In this document: one piece after another, positions 2,175 to 30,081 of the stretch
Layout of the letters: every line of letters begins with the position of its first letter
Position numbering within the stretch: position 1 is the first letter of the stretch
Made by a program: the position numbers and the translations under genes
Virus record (IMG/VR): IMGVR_UViG_3300009762_000027
Coordinates: 1 to 31,925 of that record
Direction: 5' to 3' (one strand)
Origin: a virus
DNA: 31,925 nucleotides
Notes under the pieces: generated by a model
Seen by the model: only the letters and a program-made list of their open reading frames with translations
Told to the model about the DNA's origin: nothing
Database searches by the model: none

Positions 2175-3217
2175 TGATCCTGCTGATTGTCGGCACGAGG
2201 CCAGAGATTATTAAGCTGGCGCCGGTTGTCTGGGAGCTGGAACGACGCCAGATTCCGTATCGCGTCTTGTTCACGCACCAGTCGTTCTCGCCACAGATGG
2301 GAGCGGAGTTCCTGGAGGAGCTGAAGTACCAGGTGCTCAATGTGCTGTCTGATAGCAGAACGTACGCTGCCTGGGGTGTAGAGAAAGCTTTCTCGGAGAT
2401 GATTGGAGTCACGCAGCTGCTCAAGCCCAGGCTGATAGTTGCAGAAGGAGACACGCACTCGACCGGGCTGGCAGCCATGACTGCTGTAAGCATGGGGATC
2501 AAGTTCGCCCATGTGGAAGCTGGCCTTCGAAGTAACGATGGCACGATGCGCGAAGAGCAGTATCGCAGGATGGCAGACGAAGCTGCCCAGCTGTTGTTCC
2601 TGCCATGCGGGCGCCATTTGCATAACGTGGTTTTCTGCCTGGGTAAGAAGTTCATCGTAGGCAACACGATTGCCGATATGATGGCCTGGTGGACGAAGAA
2701 AATGCCCAAGCCGGACGTGCGACATGACCAAGTCCTGATCACGCTGCACCGCCAGGAGCTGATCACAGATGCGTCTCTGCTGCAGTTAGTTTTGCAAGCG
2801 CTTGCAAATGAGCTGAGCGCTCTTGGCCTGAAGGCGATTTTCCCGTGCCATCCGCATACGAAGAAGTTCCTGCCGCTGCATCTCGAAAACAGCGAATGCA
2901 TTGAAGTGGTTCAGCCGTTCTCGCAGAGGGTGTTTATCAAGAAGCTGCGTGAGTCTGCACTTGTCTTGACCGATTCTGGTGGAGTCCAGGAAGAAGCATG
3001 TATCCTGGGGATTCCAGCTGGGATAATTCGCCAGTCGAATGAACGGTGGGAGACGATTGAAATGAAGGCTGCTATTCTGATGACCCCGCAGATGGTGGCT
3101 GGTGGAGGAAGGCTCTGTCAGGAGGTGTTGACCTCGACCCGCAGAGCGTGGGAGCATCCGTATGGCAAAGATGTTGGTAAGAAGATAGCTGACGTCCTGG
3201 AGGAGCATCATGGTTGA
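2174..3217 (+). CDS. wecB-like: UDP-N-acetylglucosamine 2-epimerase (WecB-like)
   Basis: This 347-residue protein matches non-hydrolysing UDP-GlcNAc 2-epimerases, which interconvert UDP-GlcNAc and UDP-ManNAc. Visible signatures are GTRPEIIKLAPV at 7-18, EGDTHST at 91-97, HVEAGLRS at 113-120, GNTIADM at 163-169, ITLHRQE at 189-195 and DSGGVQEEA at 267-275. It is some 25 residues shorter than most WecB proteins, and several motifs are looser than usual: the Arg-Arg-Glu-Asn motif reads HRQEL. The substrate could therefore be a related UDP-sugar. Codons 208-213 contain one copy of the 18-bp palindrome (2791-2808). It is coupled to the epimerase upstream and overlaps the ParB-domain gene by 8 bases. 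Confidence 0.87.
   Translation: MILLIVGTRPEIIKLAPVVWELERRQIPYRVLFTHQSFSPQMGAEFLEELKYQVLNVLSDSRTYAAWGVEKAFSEMIGVTQLLKPRLIVAEGDTHSTGLAAMTAVSMGIKFAHVEAGLRSNDGTMREEQYRRMADEAAQLLFLPCGRHLHNVVFCLGKKFIVGNTIADMMAWWTKKMPKPDVRHDQVLITLHRQELITDASLLQLVLQALANELSALGLKAIFPCHPHTKKFLPLHLENSECIEVVQPFSQRVFIKKLRESALVLTDSGGVQEEACILGIPAGIIRQSNERWETIEMKAAILMTPQMVAGGGRLCQEVLTSTRRAWEHPYGKDVGKKIADVLEEHHG
2791..2808. repeat. Dispersed palindrome copy 1 (18 bp, inside the 2-epimerase gene)
   Basis: TTTGCAAGCGCTTGCAAA is a perfect 18-bp palindrome whose 14-bp core TGCAAGCGCTTGCA recurs seven times in the window. Here it encodes Leu-Gln-Ala-Leu-Ala within the epimerase. It fits the relaxed CcpA cre pattern TGNAANCGNTNNCA. 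Function is unknown. Confidence 0.85.
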
Positions 3218-4028
3218 AATTTTCGAAACAGTTATGATCCCGAAGAATAAGATCAGGCCGAATGAATGGAACCCGAATGTCATGACGGCTGACCTGTTCA
3301 ATGAGCTGACGGAGAACATTGAATCGTTAGGAGCTGTGCAGGATGTTGTAGTCGCTCCGTTGGCGCCAGAAGAACAGACTGACGGCTATGAATTTCGTAT
3401 CGTAGATGGCGAGCACCGTTTTGATGGCTTCAGCGTCCTGGACTTGGAGCTGATTCCCTGCAAGATTGTCGGCATCAGTGAGGACGATCAGAAGTTCCAG
3501 ACTGTTAAGTTGAACCGGCTGCGTGGAAAGTTTAACCAGAAGAAGTTTACTGCTCTGGTAAAAGACCTGATGAACCGCTACAGCCTGGAGGAAGTGGCCC
3601 AGCGGATGGCGTTTACCGATCCGACTGAACTGGAAGCCATGCTGGAGCATGCCCGGGAGTCCCTGCCGTCAGAAGAAATGCAGAATGAATTTGACAAGGC
3701 CAGGGGTGAGATCAAGACGGTGGACGATCTGTCCATGGTGCTGAACCGCTTGTTCACGAAGTATGGCGACACGTTGCCGTACAATTTTATGATCCTGGAT
3801 TTTGGTGGCAAGGAGCATATGTGGGTGCGCATGCATCCGCATGATCACCGTGCTATTCTGCATCAGGCCCGGGAGTGCGTAGCCCATGGCGTTACGTTTG
3901 ACTCAGTATTGGCTCGAATGATCAGCGTCATGTCAGTAAAGGAGTTTGTAGAAACGCACCGCGATTTCCTGAGGGAGCCCAGCCAAGAGACTGCCTCCCG
4001 CGGCTCGGTTGCCGCATTTGATGACTGA
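3210..4028 (+). CDS. ParB/Srx-fold domain protein
   Basis: The first ~120 of 272 residues form a ParB/sulfiredoxin-like domain: a KIRPNEWNPN entry motif at 14-23, a helix ELTENIESLGAVQDVVV, and the box VDGEHRF at 65-71. Domains of this fold are CTPases or nucleases in chromosome segregation proteins and occur as single-domain proteins in many phages, often beside the terminase. A helical stretch (residues 120-160, SLEEVAQRMAFTDPTELEAML) could be a weak helix-turn-helix. The C-terminal part is unrecognised. It overlaps the 2-epimerase by 8 bases and its stop overlaps the small terminase start, so it belongs to the packaging operon. Whether it binds the dispersed palindrome is an open question. 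Confidence 0.8.
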   Translation: MVEIFETVMIPKNKIRPNEWNPNVMTADLFNELTENIESLGAVQDVVVAPLAPEEQTDGYEFRIVDGEHRFDGFSVLDLELIPCKIVGISEDDQKFQTVKLNRLRGKFNQKKFTALVKDLMNRYSLEEVAQRMAFTDPTELEAMLEHARESLPSEEMQNEFDKARGEIKTVDDLSMVLNRLFTKYGDTLPYNFMILDFGGKEHMWVRMHPHDHRAILHQARECVAHGVTFDSVLARMISVMSVKEFVETHRDFLREPSQETASRGSVAAFDD

Positions 4029-14997: not shown

Positions 14998-15168
14998 ATG
15001 GCGATGAGCAGGAATAGAAAAAGGGCGATCAGGGCTCTGGGGGGCGCTTTCGTAAAGCTGACGGCAGCGGGACTGTATCTGATGATGGACGAGGCCGTCT
15101 CGCAGACGAAGGAGGCTGATAGACTGGCGAATGAAGTCGCTTTGCTGCTCAAGCAGATAAAGGAGTGA
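14998..15168 (+). CDS. Small helical protein A (paralogue of 15253-15456)
   Basis: ATG 14998 (or 15004) opens a 56-residue product: a basic start (MAMSRNRKRAIRALGG), then AFVKLTAAGLYLMMDEAVSQ and TKEADRLANEVALLLKQIKE. The second half is clearly related to protein B downstream (SAAGLAL..., EADRLANDTGVLLKKI). This shows a local gene duplication. The ribosome site is weak (GAGGGGTC). No function can be named; a single amphipathic helix pair is likely. Confidence 0.6.
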   Translation: MAMSRNRKRAIRALGGAFVKLTAAGLYLMMDEAVSQTKEADRLANEVALLLKQIKE

Positions 15169-15172
15169 GCCG

Positions 15173-15253
15173 ATGCACCGTTTGATGACGAATATCTGGG
15201 TTATCGTTGGTGGGGCTGTGATTCTGGCGCTGCTGGAGATTTGGAGGGGATGA
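15173..15253 (+). CDS. 26-residue membrane peptide
   Basis: ATG 15173 lies 5 bases after AAGGAGTGAGCC. The frame encodes MHRLMTNIWVIVGGAVILAL followed by LEIWRG, a single hydrophobic helix with a positive N-terminus. The stop overlaps the start of protein B (TGATG). Tiny membrane peptides between phage genes are common. The ribosome site and overlap argue that it is expressed. Confidence 0.5.
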   Translation: MHRLMTNIWVIVGGAVILALLEIWRG

Positions 15254-15456
15254 TGCCGACCAAGGAGATGCGGAAAGCACGAAAGGCCTTGCGGCAGGCG
15301 CTGATATGGCTGTCTGCTGCAGGTCTGGCTTTGGCCAGGGATGGGACGGTGTCTGAACTGGAGGAGGCAGACCGCCTGGCGAATGATACCGGAGTTCTGC
15401 TCAAGAAGATCGGAGGGCAAAATGAGAAAAGGCAAGATTCTGGCGTTCCACGGTAG
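15253..15456 (+). CDS. Small helical protein B (paralogue of 14998-15168)
   Basis: ATG 15253 (or 15250) overlaps the previous stop after GGAGGGG. The 67-residue product begins MPTKEMRKARKALRQALIWL, and continues SAAGLALARDGTVSELEEAD and RLANDTGVLLKKIGG. It aligns with protein A from the Lys/Arg-rich helix to the LLK(Q/K)I end. The last ~12 residues overlap the next gene by 35 bases. Its role is unknown, but duplication and retention of the RLAN core imply a selected function. Confidence 0.6.
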   Translation: MPTKEMRKARKALRQALIWLSAAGLALARDGTVSELEEADRLANDTGVLLKKIGGQNEKRQDSGVPR

Positions 15457-15784
15457 CTGGCAGTCCGGCCTGGCGCAGTTGGAGATTCAGGACTCGGAGA
15501 CCGGTGCCGTAGAACTGGCGCAGTTGGAGATTCAGGACTCGGAGACCGGTGCCGTAGAACTGGTGCCGTGTGACAACGCTCCGACCGTCCGAGCGCTGGC
15601 GTCAGCGTTTCCAGACGTGATTGGCTCCGGCCACACGGTGAACCAGAAGGCGATCGCTGGCAAGGAGATTTACTGGTCACTGGACGTCATGGGGCTGGTG
15701 TTGGGTGGGTTCACGCCGGTGAAGGGCGCTCCACGCAGGGTGACCTGGGCGTACAAGAACCAGCGGAAGGCGGCGGCGAGATGA
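15422..15784 (+). CDS. Protein of unknown function with a fresh 15-residue duplication
   Basis: ATG 15422 follows GGAGGGCAA. The 120-residue product starts MRKGKILAFHGSWQSG and then holds LAQLEIQDSETGAVE twice in tandem, encoded by two identical 45-bp copies. The remainder, VPCDNAPTVRALASAFPDVI...GKEIYWSLDVMGLVLGGFTP, looks like a compact alpha/beta domain. The un-duplicated form would be 105 residues. It overlaps protein B by 35 bases and its stop overlaps the next ATG. No family is recognised. Confidence 0.65.
   Translation: MRKGKILAFHGSWQSGLAQLEIQDSETGAVELAQLEIQDSETGAVELVPCDNAPTVRALASAFPDVIGSGHTVNQKAIAGKEIYWSLDVMGLVLGGFTPVKGAPRRVTWAYKNQRKAAAR
15470..15559 (+). repeat. Perfect 45-bp tandem duplication
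   Basis: Bases 15470-15514 and 15515-15559 are identical at all 45 positions (each starts CTGGCGCAGTTGG and ends GCCGTAGAA). A third partial copy starts CTGG at 15560 and then diverges. The duplication keeps frame. Identity at silent positions means it is recent. Confidence 0.95.
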
Positions 15785-18556: not shown

Positions 18557-18630
18557 GCAGTATGAGGCACGTAGCAAAATGTGAAAAAATTCAAAGGAGT
18601 GAAAAAAATTTGTAGAAAGTGAAAAAAAAC

Positions 18631-18659
18631 TTGACAAATAATCTTACCTATACTATCTT
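18631..18659 (+). promoter_or_regulatory. Sigma70-type promoter P3
   Basis: TTGACA (18631-18636), a 17-bp spacer ending CTTACCTATAC, and TATCTT (18654-18659). The leader repeats ATCATCACAT and CAACT found after P2. It drives the lipoprotein block. Confidence 0.78.
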
Positions 18660-18762
18660 ATAATCATCACATCAAATCAACTGGATGGCACGGGAGGAAC
18701 AGACGGTGGCAAGCAAGCGGATGCAAGATTGGGTGGAGGAACGGCTACAAGGAGCGGATGAG

Positions 18763-19026
18763 ATGAAGAAGACGCTAAAGGTGGCGACGTTGACGGCATT
18801 GTTACTGCTCGCAGGGTGTGCGAGAGGCATGATGGACGGTCTGCCACCAAACGTGGTAGCCAAGCTGACTGAGCAGTACAACACGACGATGGGGTATCCG
18901 GCAGGAACGCCGGTGCCGGGCGCACTGACTGGCCCGCAGTATTCGTCCTGGCAATTCGCCGGTCCATGCGGCTGGGGTTACTGCGGTGGCTGGGGTTGCG
19001 GCGGCTGGCATGGAGGTCACAGATGA
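18763..19026 (+). CDS. Small lipoprotein
   Basis: ATG 18763 follows AAGGAGCGGATGAG and encodes an 87-residue protein opening MKKTLKVATLTALLLLAGC. This is a clean lipoprotein signal with lipobox LAGC (Cys19), so the product should be exported and lipid-anchored. The mature part is short and ends Gly/Trp-rich (CGWGYCGGWGCGGWHGGH) with three cysteines. The frame is also open upstream from GTG 18706, which has a GGGAGG site and gives a 19-residue extension masking the signal. It overlaps the next gene by ATGA. A lysis or cell-surface role is possible for a phage lipoprotein next to a second exported protein. Confidence 0.72.
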   Translation: MKKTLKVATLTALLLLAGCARGMMDGLPPNVVAKLTEQYNTTMGYPAGTPVPGALTGPQYSSWQFAGPCGWGYCGGWGCGGWHGGHR

Positions 19027-19361
19027 AAAAGATTGCGAGAATTCTGGTGCTGGGGACGGTGCTGGCGCTTGGACCGATTCAAGTTGGGCAGGCGAATGCC
19101 TGGACCGAGCAAGAATCGGCGGTGCTGCGGGGGCTGGTAGATGCAGATCGAAATGCCCGGAAAAATGAAGAGTTGGCCCTGTATGGTCTTCCGCCCCGCT
19201 ATGGCCAGGCGGCCAGTACGCCAATGCCAATGCCTGTCGGCCCCTGGTGGGCGCAGCTTCTGGTGTGGATTGTAGTGTCAGCCTTTGTTGTCAAGCTGGT
19301 GAAGGTGCATACAGCGAAGGAGAAAAAGTGGAAGGAAGAAAATGAGAGATCTGCGGAATGA
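19023..19361 (+). CDS. Exported protein with signal peptide and C-terminal membrane helix
   Basis: ATG 19023 overlaps the lipoprotein stop. The 112-residue product begins MKKIARILVLGTVLALGPIQ followed by VGQANA, a good signal peptide with cleavage after Ala26. A charged linker and the helix WWAQLLVWIVVSAFVVKLV near residues 78-96 follow, then a basic Lys/Glu tail. Mature topology would be outside-linker, one membrane pass, inside tail. With the lipoprotein before it, a spanin-like or envelope-acting pair is conceivable, but neither protein matches a family I know. The C-terminus overlaps the ligase start by 20 bases. Confidence 0.65.
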   Translation: MKKIARILVLGTVLALGPIQVGQANAWTEQESAVLRGLVDADRNARKNEELALYGLPPRYGQAASTPMPMPVGPWWAQLLVWIVVSAFVVKLVKVHTAKEKKWKEENERSAE

Positions 19362-22075: not shown

Positions 22076-22276
22076 GTGATCAGACCGAGTGAGTTCGCTG
22101 CAATGGTGCGGAAGAAGGCTGGAGTTGCTGCTCCGGTGCCAGTTGGAGTAGAGTTCACGAAGGCTGATGGATGTCCGGCCTGTGGCCAGAAAAAGGAGGA
22201 GTCACATGATCAAGCAGGAGCGGAGGAAGTATCGTCTGACGTTGACCGAGAATCTGCTGGGGACGATCCCGACTAA
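22076..22276 (+). CDS. Possible small zinc-site protein, doubtful start
   Basis: The frame starts at GTG 22076 (or ATG 22103) with poor ribosome sites. It encodes IRPSEFAAMVRKKAGVAAPV, PVGVEFTKADGCPACGQKKE and then an acidic stretch lying inside the next gene for 71 bases. The CPACG pair is the only feature. Long overlap and weak start make this uncertain. It could be a remnant whose end was replaced by the downstream gene. Confidence 0.35.
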   Translation: MIRPSEFAAMVRKKAGVAAPVPVGVEFTKADGCPACGQKKEESHDQAGAEEVSSDVDRESAGDDPD

Positions 22277-22829
22277 GAAGGATCTGTTCACAGCCCACGT
22301 GGCCAGTGAGGAGACTGGGGAAGACGAGCCGGTGAAAGATCTGGAGGGTGGGGAGGCAGGTTACACCACTTTCTTGCAGGACGCCGATGGTGTCTACCTG
22401 TTCGATTACCACGTGAAGGGCTTCCTGAAGGAGGCCGGCAACGTCCTCAAGGAGCAGGTGGAAACGACCAAGCAGAAGAAGGGCGGCGAGCCCTCGGAGC
22501 GTGAAGCTCAGACGGGTGTCCGAGCGCTGAAGTCGAAGCTTGACAACTACGTGTTCGTGTTCCCTCGGCGAATTTTCCTGAAGGACAAGGTGGACGGAGT
22601 GTTCGAACGGCCGCTTCGGGCGATGACGGCGATGGGGCCCCGGGTTGCCCTGGCGAAGAGTGACTTCATTGCCGCGGGAACACAGTTCATGGTGGAGATC
22701 GCCCTGTTGCCTCACAAGGAGCTGACCTGGCAGATGATCGAGGGGCTGATGGATTATGGCCAGCTGAAAGGTCTGGGCCAGTTCCGAAATGGCTCGTATG
22801 GCCGCTTCACCTGGGAGCGTGTTGGCTGA
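22206..22829 (+). CDS. Conserved phage protein (LLGT..., PLRAMTAMGPRVALA, GLGQFRNGSYGRF)
   Basis: ATG 22206 follows AAAGGAGGAG. The 207-residue product opens MIKQERRKYRLTLTENLLGT and has FDYHVKGFLKEAG, YVFVFPRRIFL, RPLRAMTAMGPRVALAKSDF and a final LKGLGQFRNGSYGRFTW. From memory, this is a widespread phage family of unknown function, usually ending in GLGQWRN..YGRF. The glycine-rich end loop recalls RAMP/RRM-fold RNA-binding proteins, but that is only a resemblance. The gene ends where the pentamer repeat array begins, so a functional tie to that DNA is possible. Confidence 0.72.
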   Translation: MIKQERRKYRLTLTENLLGTIPTKKDLFTAHVASEETGEDEPVKDLEGGEAGYTTFLQDADGVYLFDYHVKGFLKEAGNVLKEQVETTKQKKGGEPSEREAQTGVRALKSKLDNYVFVFPRRIFLKDKVDGVFERPLRAMTAMGPRVALAKSDFIAAGTQFMVEIALLPHKELTWQMIEGLMDYGQLKGLGQFRNGSYGRFTWERVG

Positions 22830-23740
22830 GGCTTGGCTGGGTCAAGCTGTGCGAAGCATAGGCGTGGCCTGGCGAATCTGGGCGTAGCGATAGCGTGGCG
22901 CAGCTAAGGCATAGCGCAGTCAGGATTGCTCGGCATAGGTGTTGCAGAGTCATGCGAAGCTTGGGCATGGAGAAGAAAAGTCGAGCGAAGCATGGGCACA
23001 GCGCTCCAACGCATGGTGAAGCTCCGGCAACGCCTGTCATTGAAAAGCATTGGCGCTGCTATTTGCAGCACGGTATGGCGCCGGCACTGTTTGGCGGGGC
23101 CTCGGCAAGGCCCAGCAACGCCCGGCCCGGGCGATTCAGCGCACAGCAACGAGAAGGCAAGGCGAGGTCTGCAAAGCATGGTAAAGCGGTGGCAAGACGA
23201 GGCGTGGCACTGGGCCGGCGTAGCACTGCCGCGTTCAGCATATGCTAAGCAGCGTAATGTACGCAGAGCACAGGAAAAGCAAGGTCACGCTCAGCAAGTG
23301 CAGTGCTAAGCTCCGCGCACCTGAGGCAGAGAAAAGCTCCGCGCTGCTGGGGCAAAGCGTGGTGAAGTTAAGCAAGGTAAAGCGACAGCACGGCGAAGCA
23401 GCGGCACGGCGAAGCAGCGGCTTGGAACAGCTCTGCACAGGCGTAGCTCGGTGCACAGCAGCGCAGCAGAGGAAAAGCAGCGTAATGCTTGACGTCGCAG
23501 AGGTATGGCCTTTCGCGGCTTCGCAGCGGAAAAGTGTGGCGAAGCGTCGGTAATGCAAAGCATGGTTTGCGTCGCATTGGCAACCCATTGCAAGGCGCGG
23601 GCACCGCACGGAGAGCACAGCATGGGCGTGGCAGAGCAGAGCGTGACTTGGTGCCGCCCTGCGTCGGTAATGTGTCGAAGGCAAAGGCATTGTGTGGCGA
23701 GGTCAAGCATTGGCGAAGGTGATGGCCAGTCCCAGGTGTA
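22830..23740. repeat. 0.9-kb array of degenerate GCNNN pentamers, non-coding
   Basis: GC dinucleotides recur every 5 bp with regular one-base slips. At the left end they begin at 22831, 22836, 22846, 22851, 22856, 22862, 22867, 22872, 22882, 22887, 22893, 22898, 22903, 22909 and 22914, a mean of about 5.2 bp. Around 23352-23446 the mean is also about 5.2. Open frames exist on both strands, but none has a ribosome site or family match, and the period of 5 is not a codon multiple. The strand shown carries mostly A and G between the GC steps. Function is unknown. Confidence 0.72.
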
Positions 23741-23768
23741 GGCTGTTTCAGCTGATATCCGGGACTGG
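23726..23768. repeat. Inverted repeat at the end of the pentamer array
   Basis: CCAGTCCC at 23726-23733 and GGGACTGG at 23761-23768 are perfect 8-bp arms around a 27-base loop. No T-run follows, so it is not a clear terminator. It lies 30 bp before promoter P4 and may mark the boundary of the array or bind a protein. Confidence 0.6.
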
Positions 23769-23797
23769 TCATGTTACCTGAGTTAGTGATTTTTCCC

Positions 23798-23826
23798 TTG
23801 ACAAAAATTTTTACCTATTCTATAAT
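23798..23826 (+). promoter_or_regulatory. Sigma70-type promoter P4 (consensus boxes)
   Basis: TTGACA (23798-23803), a 17-bp spacer containing TTTTTACCTATTC and TATAAT (23821-23826), both boxes at full consensus. It drives the polymerase X gene 34 bp further on. Confidence 0.82.
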
Positions 23827-23859: not shown

Positions 23860-24411
23860 GTGAGCAAGAATGGAAGCAGGATGCCGATGGAACAGGCCAG
23901 GAAGCTGGCGGAGGAACTGTCGGCGAAGCTGACTGTAGCAGGCGTCATGAATGAGGTCTGTGGCTCGATCAGGCGTGGCACGAAGGAGACGGTCGGAGAT
24001 CTCGACGTGATAGTGTCGGATCTGCACCGGGCGTACATGGTGCTGGCGCCAGGAGAGGGTCTGTTTGAAGTGCCGAAACCGCTGACGCCGGCAGCAAAAG
24101 GGAGGATCAGACGCTCGGCGGACGTGGAATTCGGAGGCCTGACGGTGAATCTGTATCTGGCGTTCCAGGATGAATGGGGAGCGATGAAGGTGTTTCTGAC
24201 TGGCAATGGGGTTTTCAATGTCCAGATGCGTGGGTTTGCCAAAGGGAAGGGGTATAAGCTGAATCAGTACGGCCTGTTCCATGGAGAAGATAAGATTGCC
24301 GGCCGGGACGAATTTCACGTTTTCTATGCGCTGGGACTTAGGTGGATAGAGCCGAACGAACGGGAGTTTCAGCACAGAGTAGATAAGATCCACGATTACC
24401 GGGAGGTATAG
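23860..24411 (+). CDS. polX-like: Family X DNA polymerase, catalytic part only
   Basis: The 183-residue product has GSIRRGTKETVGDLDVIV at 35-52: the GS nucleotide-binding loop and the first two catalytic Asp residues (47 and 49). It also has FLTGNGVFNVQMRGFAKGKG and YKLNQYGLF from the thumb, and the end ALGLRWIEPNERE of family X. It lacks the N-terminal lyase domain, as do compact phage forms. At the third catalytic position, expected Asp, it has Asn97 (TVNLYLAF). It would fill short gaps in repair, perhaps with the ligase, if active. The GTG start is preceded by GGGAGCC. Confidence 0.82.
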   Translation: MSKNGSRMPMEQARKLAEELSAKLTVAGVMNEVCGSIRRGTKETVGDLDVIVSDLHRAYMVLAPGEGLFEVPKPLTPAAKGRIRRSADVEFGGLTVNLYLAFQDEWGAMKVFLTGNGVFNVQMRGFAKGKGYKLNQYGLFHGEDKIAGRDEFHVFYALGLRWIEPNEREFQHRVDKIHDYREV

Positions 24412-29820: not shown

Positions 29821-30081
29821 ATGACCATCGGAAGCTCGGGAAAGATGGGTAATGTTGGAGGCGGTAAGCAGGCCGGCGCCATCGGGAAGCGTAAAGCTAT
29901 CTATGGCTCGGCGCTGACCCTCGACCAGAACCGAACGAAGGTCGCGTATCCCACGACCACCACGACAACCAGCACTTCGACCACGACCAGCACGTCGACG
30001 ACCACCACGCATACCACGACCACGTCGAGCACGACCACCACGTCGAGCACGACCACCACGCATACCACGACCACGACCTAA
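29821..30081 (+). CDS. Small protein made half of a Thr/Ser/His-rich tail
   Basis: ATG 29821 follows AAAGGAGG. The 86-residue product has a 43-residue basic, Gly-rich head (MTIGSSGKMGNVGGGKQAGA and KRKAIYGSALTLDQ) and then an almost pure Thr/Ser tail with TTTTH units. The DNA of the tail contains the same 26-bp stretch twice (29999-30024 and 30050-30075). It sits among neck genes, so it is likely a virion protein, perhaps a decoration or fibre component. No family is recognised for the head. Confidence 0.6.
   Translation: MTIGSSGKMGNVGGGKQAGAIGKRKAIYGSALTLDQNRTKVAYPTTTTTTSTSTTTSTSTTTTHTTTTSSTTTTSSTTTTHTTTTT
29999..30075 (+). repeat. Direct repeat in the Thr-tail coding DNA
   Basis: A 26-bp stretch containing CCACGCATACCACG occurs at 29999-30024 and 30050-30075, 51 bp (17 codons) apart and in frame. 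The stretch between them holds GTCGAGCACGACCACCAC units. The tract reads mostly ACC and ACG codons and could expand or shrink by slippage. Confidence 0.85.

Follow-up and report, generated by a model that had tools for sequence, protein, structure and literature searches.

RAMP proteins polymerise on CRISPR RNA and make up the RNA-holding backbone of CRISPR complexes. The described system that matches a RAMP gene lying next to a pentamer array is VIPR (Viral Interference Programmable Repeat), first described in 2026 and proposed to be an ancestor of CRISPR (PMC13142463, doi 10.64898/2026.04.26.720920). This preprint describes Vipr as a phage RAMP protein whose guide RNAs are composed of GGY/NN pentamers, and VIPR as a means of silencing rival phages and satellites. 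For phage SUSP1, whose system is type II, it reports experimentally that the guides pair with DNA through their variable bases, with one base being skipped. The published vrRNAs consist of 9-16 repeats, those of type II having an invariant structured 3' tail, and an accessory gene, vap, is described there as typical but not universal. According to the preprint there are seven VIPR types, some of them with ‘a related consensus’ or with ‘staggered arrays with overlapping vrRNAs’ (PMC13142463). In the SUSP1 record KT454805.2, the vipr gene was assigned by the arrays on both of its flanks, following the preprint's description (PMC13142463). It specifies a 195-aa Vipr (ALH47069.1, phrog_4652), is accompanied by an accessory gene of 146 aa and has pentamer guides, of period 5, on both sides.

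The window analysed here is a 31.9-kb phage fragment from IMG/VR (31,925 nucleotides), which encodes HNH endonuclease, DNA ligase, head protease, capsid and connector genes according to Pfam and PHROG matches. Within it, a long rhythmic region lies directly behind a small gene (Table 1). This region is very likely a guide-RNA array of a VIPR-type system, variant in its motif (RGYNN) and in its register shift. The array is real, strongly conserved and functional; by analogy, its mechanism is probably that of VIPR.

Table 1. Features of the array locus (positions in the window)
Feature	Position	Strand	Details
Vipr-like RAMP protein gene	22206..22829	+	207 aa; ATG at 22206, preceded by AAAAAGGAGG; longest ORF from 22167
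Phased R-G-Y-N-N array	22830..23706	+	units average 5.17 nt; some 140 of them in 22830-23560, with a weaker signal beyond
Long hairpin closing the array	23707..23788	+	-48.5 kcal/mol, z -5.6; 0/200 shuffles as stable
Sigma-70 promoter for the next gene, TTGACA-17-TATAAT	23798..23826	+	12/12 consensus bases

An initial annotation of the window had pointed to GC dinucleotides recurring at about 5.2 bp, and this rhythm is confirmed. Fourier analysis and autocorrelation show the GC steps of 22830-23740 repeating every 5.15-5.17 nt, with 142 steps counted against 80 predicted from base composition. Autocorrelation maxima fall at lags 5, 10/11, 16, 21, 26 and 31 (z = 6-8 at lags 5, 16, 21, 26 and 31), and the Fourier power of 21 at 5.15 is far above the 8.6 that is the highest value, at any period, in 60 dinucleotide shuffles; within 22801-23400 the power is 39.5. 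The annotation had also proposed that the slips preserve the phase. A phase-lock test bears this out: with the gaps in their true order R is 31, whereas gap-shuffled controls average 8 and never exceed 20. Since shuffling the order of the same gaps abolishes the peak, the phase is held over hundreds of bases. The rhythm peaks in strength between 22830 and about 23560, then fades. One correction to the annotation is that the pattern is not confined to GC steps, with GG, AG, CA and AA likewise periodic at 5.16 on the + strand. The pattern is also strand-specific, GG being periodic and CC not. An HMM of the array matches the window at 22767-23756 on the + strand (59 bits). In a scan of the window outside the array, a GC-rhythm power of 11.6 was reached only at 18601. 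The segment concerned, 18601-19200, has a weaker GC rhythm at 5.2, is missed by the array HMM and overlaps a stretch of the repeated words GGCTGGGGTT and GGCGGCT.

The rhythm is built of pentamers with an occasional extra base. The unit HMM gives the window array the unit R (.75) G (.92) Y (.91) N N, in which GC is commonest, and divides it into 111 units of 5 nt, 27 of 6 nt and three of 4 nt, in agreement with the earlier claim that the slips are nearly all +1. In the pooled arrays, the HMM unit is R-G-(C/A)-N-N, with a length of 5 nt in 4216 cases and of 6 nt in 895. The 6-nt units bear the motif GC[A/G]ANGG (423 seen, 45 expected), which is spaced at 31, 26, 36, 41 and 62 nt (5n+1), so the register moves by +1 base at this motif every 5-8 pentamers. 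The period of 5.17 is thus 31/6, since some six pentamers are followed by a single added base at the junction motif. The possibility that this super-period is an artefact of the HMM was rejected: sequences simulated from the HMM have a geometric spacing of 6-nt units and lack a junction consensus, and a motif count made without any HMM reproduces the junction spacing. By analogy with the GGCAGGC of SUSP1-like arrays (see below), GC[A/G]ANGG is probably a punctuation between guide segments. The array also contains, at 23385-23416 (+), local near-perfect 16-nt tandem copies, GCACGGCGAAGCAGCG (TRF rows 23380-23416 and 23388-23421).

The array begins at the stop codon of the RAMP gene (22829), and the hairpin at its other end is followed by a T run at 23788-23792. 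Hairpin and T run together are probably the 3' end or terminator of the predicted array transcript. Because the perfect promoter beyond them serves the next gene, the array probably belongs to its own transcription unit or to that of the RAMP gene. The gene behind this promoter, at 23860-24411, encodes DNA polymerase beta (family X) palm and thumb domains, which are unusual in a phage. One of the three suggestions of the initial annotation, an RNA with repeated structure, comes close to the guide-RNA array favoured here. The array itself is predicted to fold no more stably than shuffles (z -0.8 to +1.4). An Rfam search in and around the arrays returned no hammerhead ribozymes or known RNAs, its only hits being tRNAs located elsewhere, and a CRISPR-DR match in the array stayed below threshold (22 bits against a gathering score of 35). 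Array DNA gave no blastn match in phage records. Elsewhere in the window there are short tandem repeats rich in CCACGACCACCACG (29951-30075) and a perfect 45-nt duplication (15470-15563).

The 207-aa protein has no match in Pfam, PHROG or NCBIfam. Its AlphaFold model, made from a 65-sequence alignment (pLDDT 86, pTM 0.81), has as its top Foldseek match in the PDB a type VII CRISPR Cas7 (E=3e-10), with many Csm3 chains also found, and the family profile matches PDB entries for Cas7 (E 6e-5) and Csm4 (E 2e-3) over a C-terminal Gly-rich loop. Judged by predicted fold and profile, the protein is a RAMP protein. Profile comparison further makes it a distant homologue of phage SUSP1 Vipr, hhalign of the family against ALH47069.1 giving a probability of 92 and an E of 7e-7 over 178 columns at about 15% identity. 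The CRISPR Cas7 backbone proteins (type VII Cas7, Csm3), its best structural matches, share the RRM fold and the Gly-rich loop. However, the array here is made of pentamers and not of repeats and spacers, no other cas genes were found, and the neighbouring genes give Pfam and PHROG matches to phage genes rather than to a CRISPR-Cas locus.

Relatives were drawn from 74 IMG/VR loci, 67 loci on bacterial and archaeal contigs and additional phage records, and the conservation counts rest on 139 non-duplicate loci from phages and prophages. In 123 of the 139, an HMM detects the array near the gene. Of the 16 others, at least five carry near the gene an array of like period, written in other letters; several of those remaining end at a contig edge, and one, L144, is without an array. 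In the arrays of L012, L037, L101 and L131, GC is replaced by GT, and in that of L141 by GA, with periods of 5.145-5.2. The period therefore stays near 5.17 despite changed sequence, which is the outcome that the initial annotation had named as a check. By contig bin, the family reaches Lokiarchaeota (L144), Omnitrophota (L101) and Endomicrobiellum (L141). All arrays lie on the coding strand of the RAMP gene, either running from its stop codon or reaching to just before its start, and sometimes both; among 40 arrays, the median period is 5.159 (sd 0.021). In 322 phage loci fetched via unrelated genes, such arrays occur only in contigs that encode this RAMP family, the other strong matches being pentapeptide-repeat genes or GGYNN arrays beside SUSP1-like vipr genes. 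The pentapeptide-repeat genes, which mimic the array in 5-nt scans, lie at L164:1036-1356, L173:6538-6936 and L194:5278-5709, and the 5-nt rhythm there is a coding one.

Five array pairs from close phages can be aligned, and in these the lattice G is mismatched at 11 of 376 positions (2.9%). The base after it is mismatched at 46 of 366 (12.6%) and the next three at 41 of 379 (10.8%), 73 of 380 (19.2%) and 46 of 380 (12.1%). Purifying selection acts on the lattice G while the letters between change. L152 carries a second, orphan array (15015-15442, +) between dUTPase and DNA methyltransferase genes, about 8 kb from the contig's vipr-like gene, which by analogy may represent guides encoded away from their protein. 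In a deep-branching member (L080:1301-1751, and L081) the vipr-like gene is directly followed by a G lattice of 4.98 nt, and a rhythm of 6.0 nt lies far upstream of it.

The likeness to VIPR of the SUSP1 kind extends to protein, array and layout. Both have a small phage RAMP protein of about 20 kDa with an RRM fold and a C-terminal Gly-rich loop, both have an adjacent non-coding pentamer array in which a fixed G-Y core is combined with variable bases, and in both the array is on the gene's strand and may be on either side of the gene. There are also differences. The core here is R-G-Y (or A), in RGYNN units, whereas that of SUSP1 is a strict GGY, in GGYNN units. Here there is one continuous array, of about 0.3-1.6 kb in the family, where SUSP1 has discrete guides, each some 100 nt long, and the +1 shift at the junction motif is a feature unlike SUSP1 VIPR. 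The protein lies outside phrog_4652, the PHROG family of SUSP1 Vipr. A recurring 3' tail was sought across the arrays and none is conserved, although the window array ends in a hairpin, while the SUSP1 vrRNAs have their tail; and besides the RAMP gene no family is common to more than about a third of the 139 loci, whereas SUSP1 has an accessory gene. Without a common tail or a widely shared accessory gene, the family differs from SUSP1-type VIPR. Because the strict GGY core and the tail are absent and DNA targeting is predicted by analogy, it is taken here as a variant of VIPR rather than as a confirmed member, though it may already be among the seven types that the preprint mentions (PMC13142463).

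The two kinds of system share the phage niche and sometimes one genome. L018 and L072/L312 are phages that each carry both this RAMP family and a SUSP1-like Vipr (phrog_4652), each family with its own style of array (L072:186-1202, 2819-3076 and 3703-4002, equal to L312; L018:592-980). The SUSP1-like Vipr genes of L018, L072/L312 and L268 also adjoin a long pentamer array, but one of GGYNN units, cut by GGCAGGC every 44-84 nt, or 9-17 pentamers. In these arrays, GGCAGGC marks a shift of -1 (5n-1 spacing), and the period is 4.86-4.96. The 9-17 pentamers per segment match the 9-16 repeats per published vrRNA (PMC13142463).

The initial annotation had explained the rhythm by the geometry of double-stranded DNA, with GC steps on alternate faces of the helix forming a bendable or protein-wrapping segment. 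Its appeal is that 5.17 is near half of 10.3-10.5 bp and that phase coherence is long, but it is now highly improbable. In pooled spectra of 40 arrays, none of the dinucleotides tested shows power at 10.33, power at 31 being likewise absent, so that the 10.3-bp component expected of half-turn phasing and curvature is missing. The signal belongs to one strand, GG but not CC, and always to the gene's strand. The suggested loading site for recombination or packaging proteins is likewise unsupported. Its spacing is five exact nucleotides plus an occasional one at the junction motif, and GT- and GA-type arrays would bend otherwise yet keep the period. With 4.86-4.96 in the sister arrays and 5 in the SUSP1 guides, 5.17 is no helical constant. 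An origin in coding or composition, such as a repeat protein or a codon effect, can be set aside almost entirely. Several reading frames do stay open across 22830-23740, and pentapeptide-repeat genes give a similar 5-nt signal at other loci; against this, the mean period is 5.17 and not 5 or 15, Fourier analysis of 22830-23740 finds no 3-nt signal, no frame would survive the register shifts, the conserved position is the lattice G and not a codon position, and shuffles of the same dinucleotide content are without the signal. The stretch of some 900 bases is non-coding, as the initial annotation had thought likely from a period other than 3, and it very probably acts as an RNA.

Another possibility is that the array RNA is a scaffold on which the RAMP protein polymerises, or a decoy that soaks up a host protein, and that its variable bases hold no target information. 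The conservation of the RAMP protein and the lattice G while the letters between drift would suit this, as would arrays of up to about 1.6 kb without a conserved tail. The lack of a DNA target in the search made here also speaks for it. Decoding covered 22 rule sets that differed in which bases pair, in the step and in how 6-nt units are treated, and under the published rule, by which two bases pair and one is skipped, there was no excess over permuted units on either strand of 12.5 Mb of phage-rich sequence, a set from which the target genomes may be absent. A small excess for this rule in 7.8 Mb was gone in the 12.5 Mb, and a perfect match between L130 and a target in L099 was discarded, the site being in an AT-rich flank outside the array. 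However, the published homologue is described as pairing with DNA through its variable bases (PMC13142463), and the regular junction motifs every 26-41 nt suggest separate segments and not a uniform scaffold. A scaffold or decoy is therefore considered unlikely.

For the guide-RNA array, the following mechanism can be proposed. The RAMP gene and the array would be co-transcribed from left to right, probably ending at the hairpin. RAMP protein molecules would assemble side by side along the array RNA, with every molecule holding the conserved R-G-Y of a single pentamer and leaving its two variable bases free to pair with a DNA target, as described for SUSP1 Vipr (PMC13142463). The one-base register move at GC[A/G]ANGG would separate the guide segments, and the phage may use the guides of the array to silence rival phages or satellites. 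A broader proposal, which is plausible but tentative, is that these phage RAMP systems form a subfamily whose guide arrays are read as short segments, with a change of register by one base built in between them: +1 at GC[A/G]ANGG here and, for the sister family, -1 at GGCAGGC. This change would either mark guide boundaries or fit one turn of the RAMP filament, and 5.17 would then be a structural signature of the complex.

The register-shift junctions provide a clue to guide cutting or to the turn of the protein filament. Long arrays of this kind can be detected by their rhythm alone, even where their letters have changed. As a variant of VIPR, the family would extend this type of system to phages that infect Clostridia of the gut and rumen, and to others.
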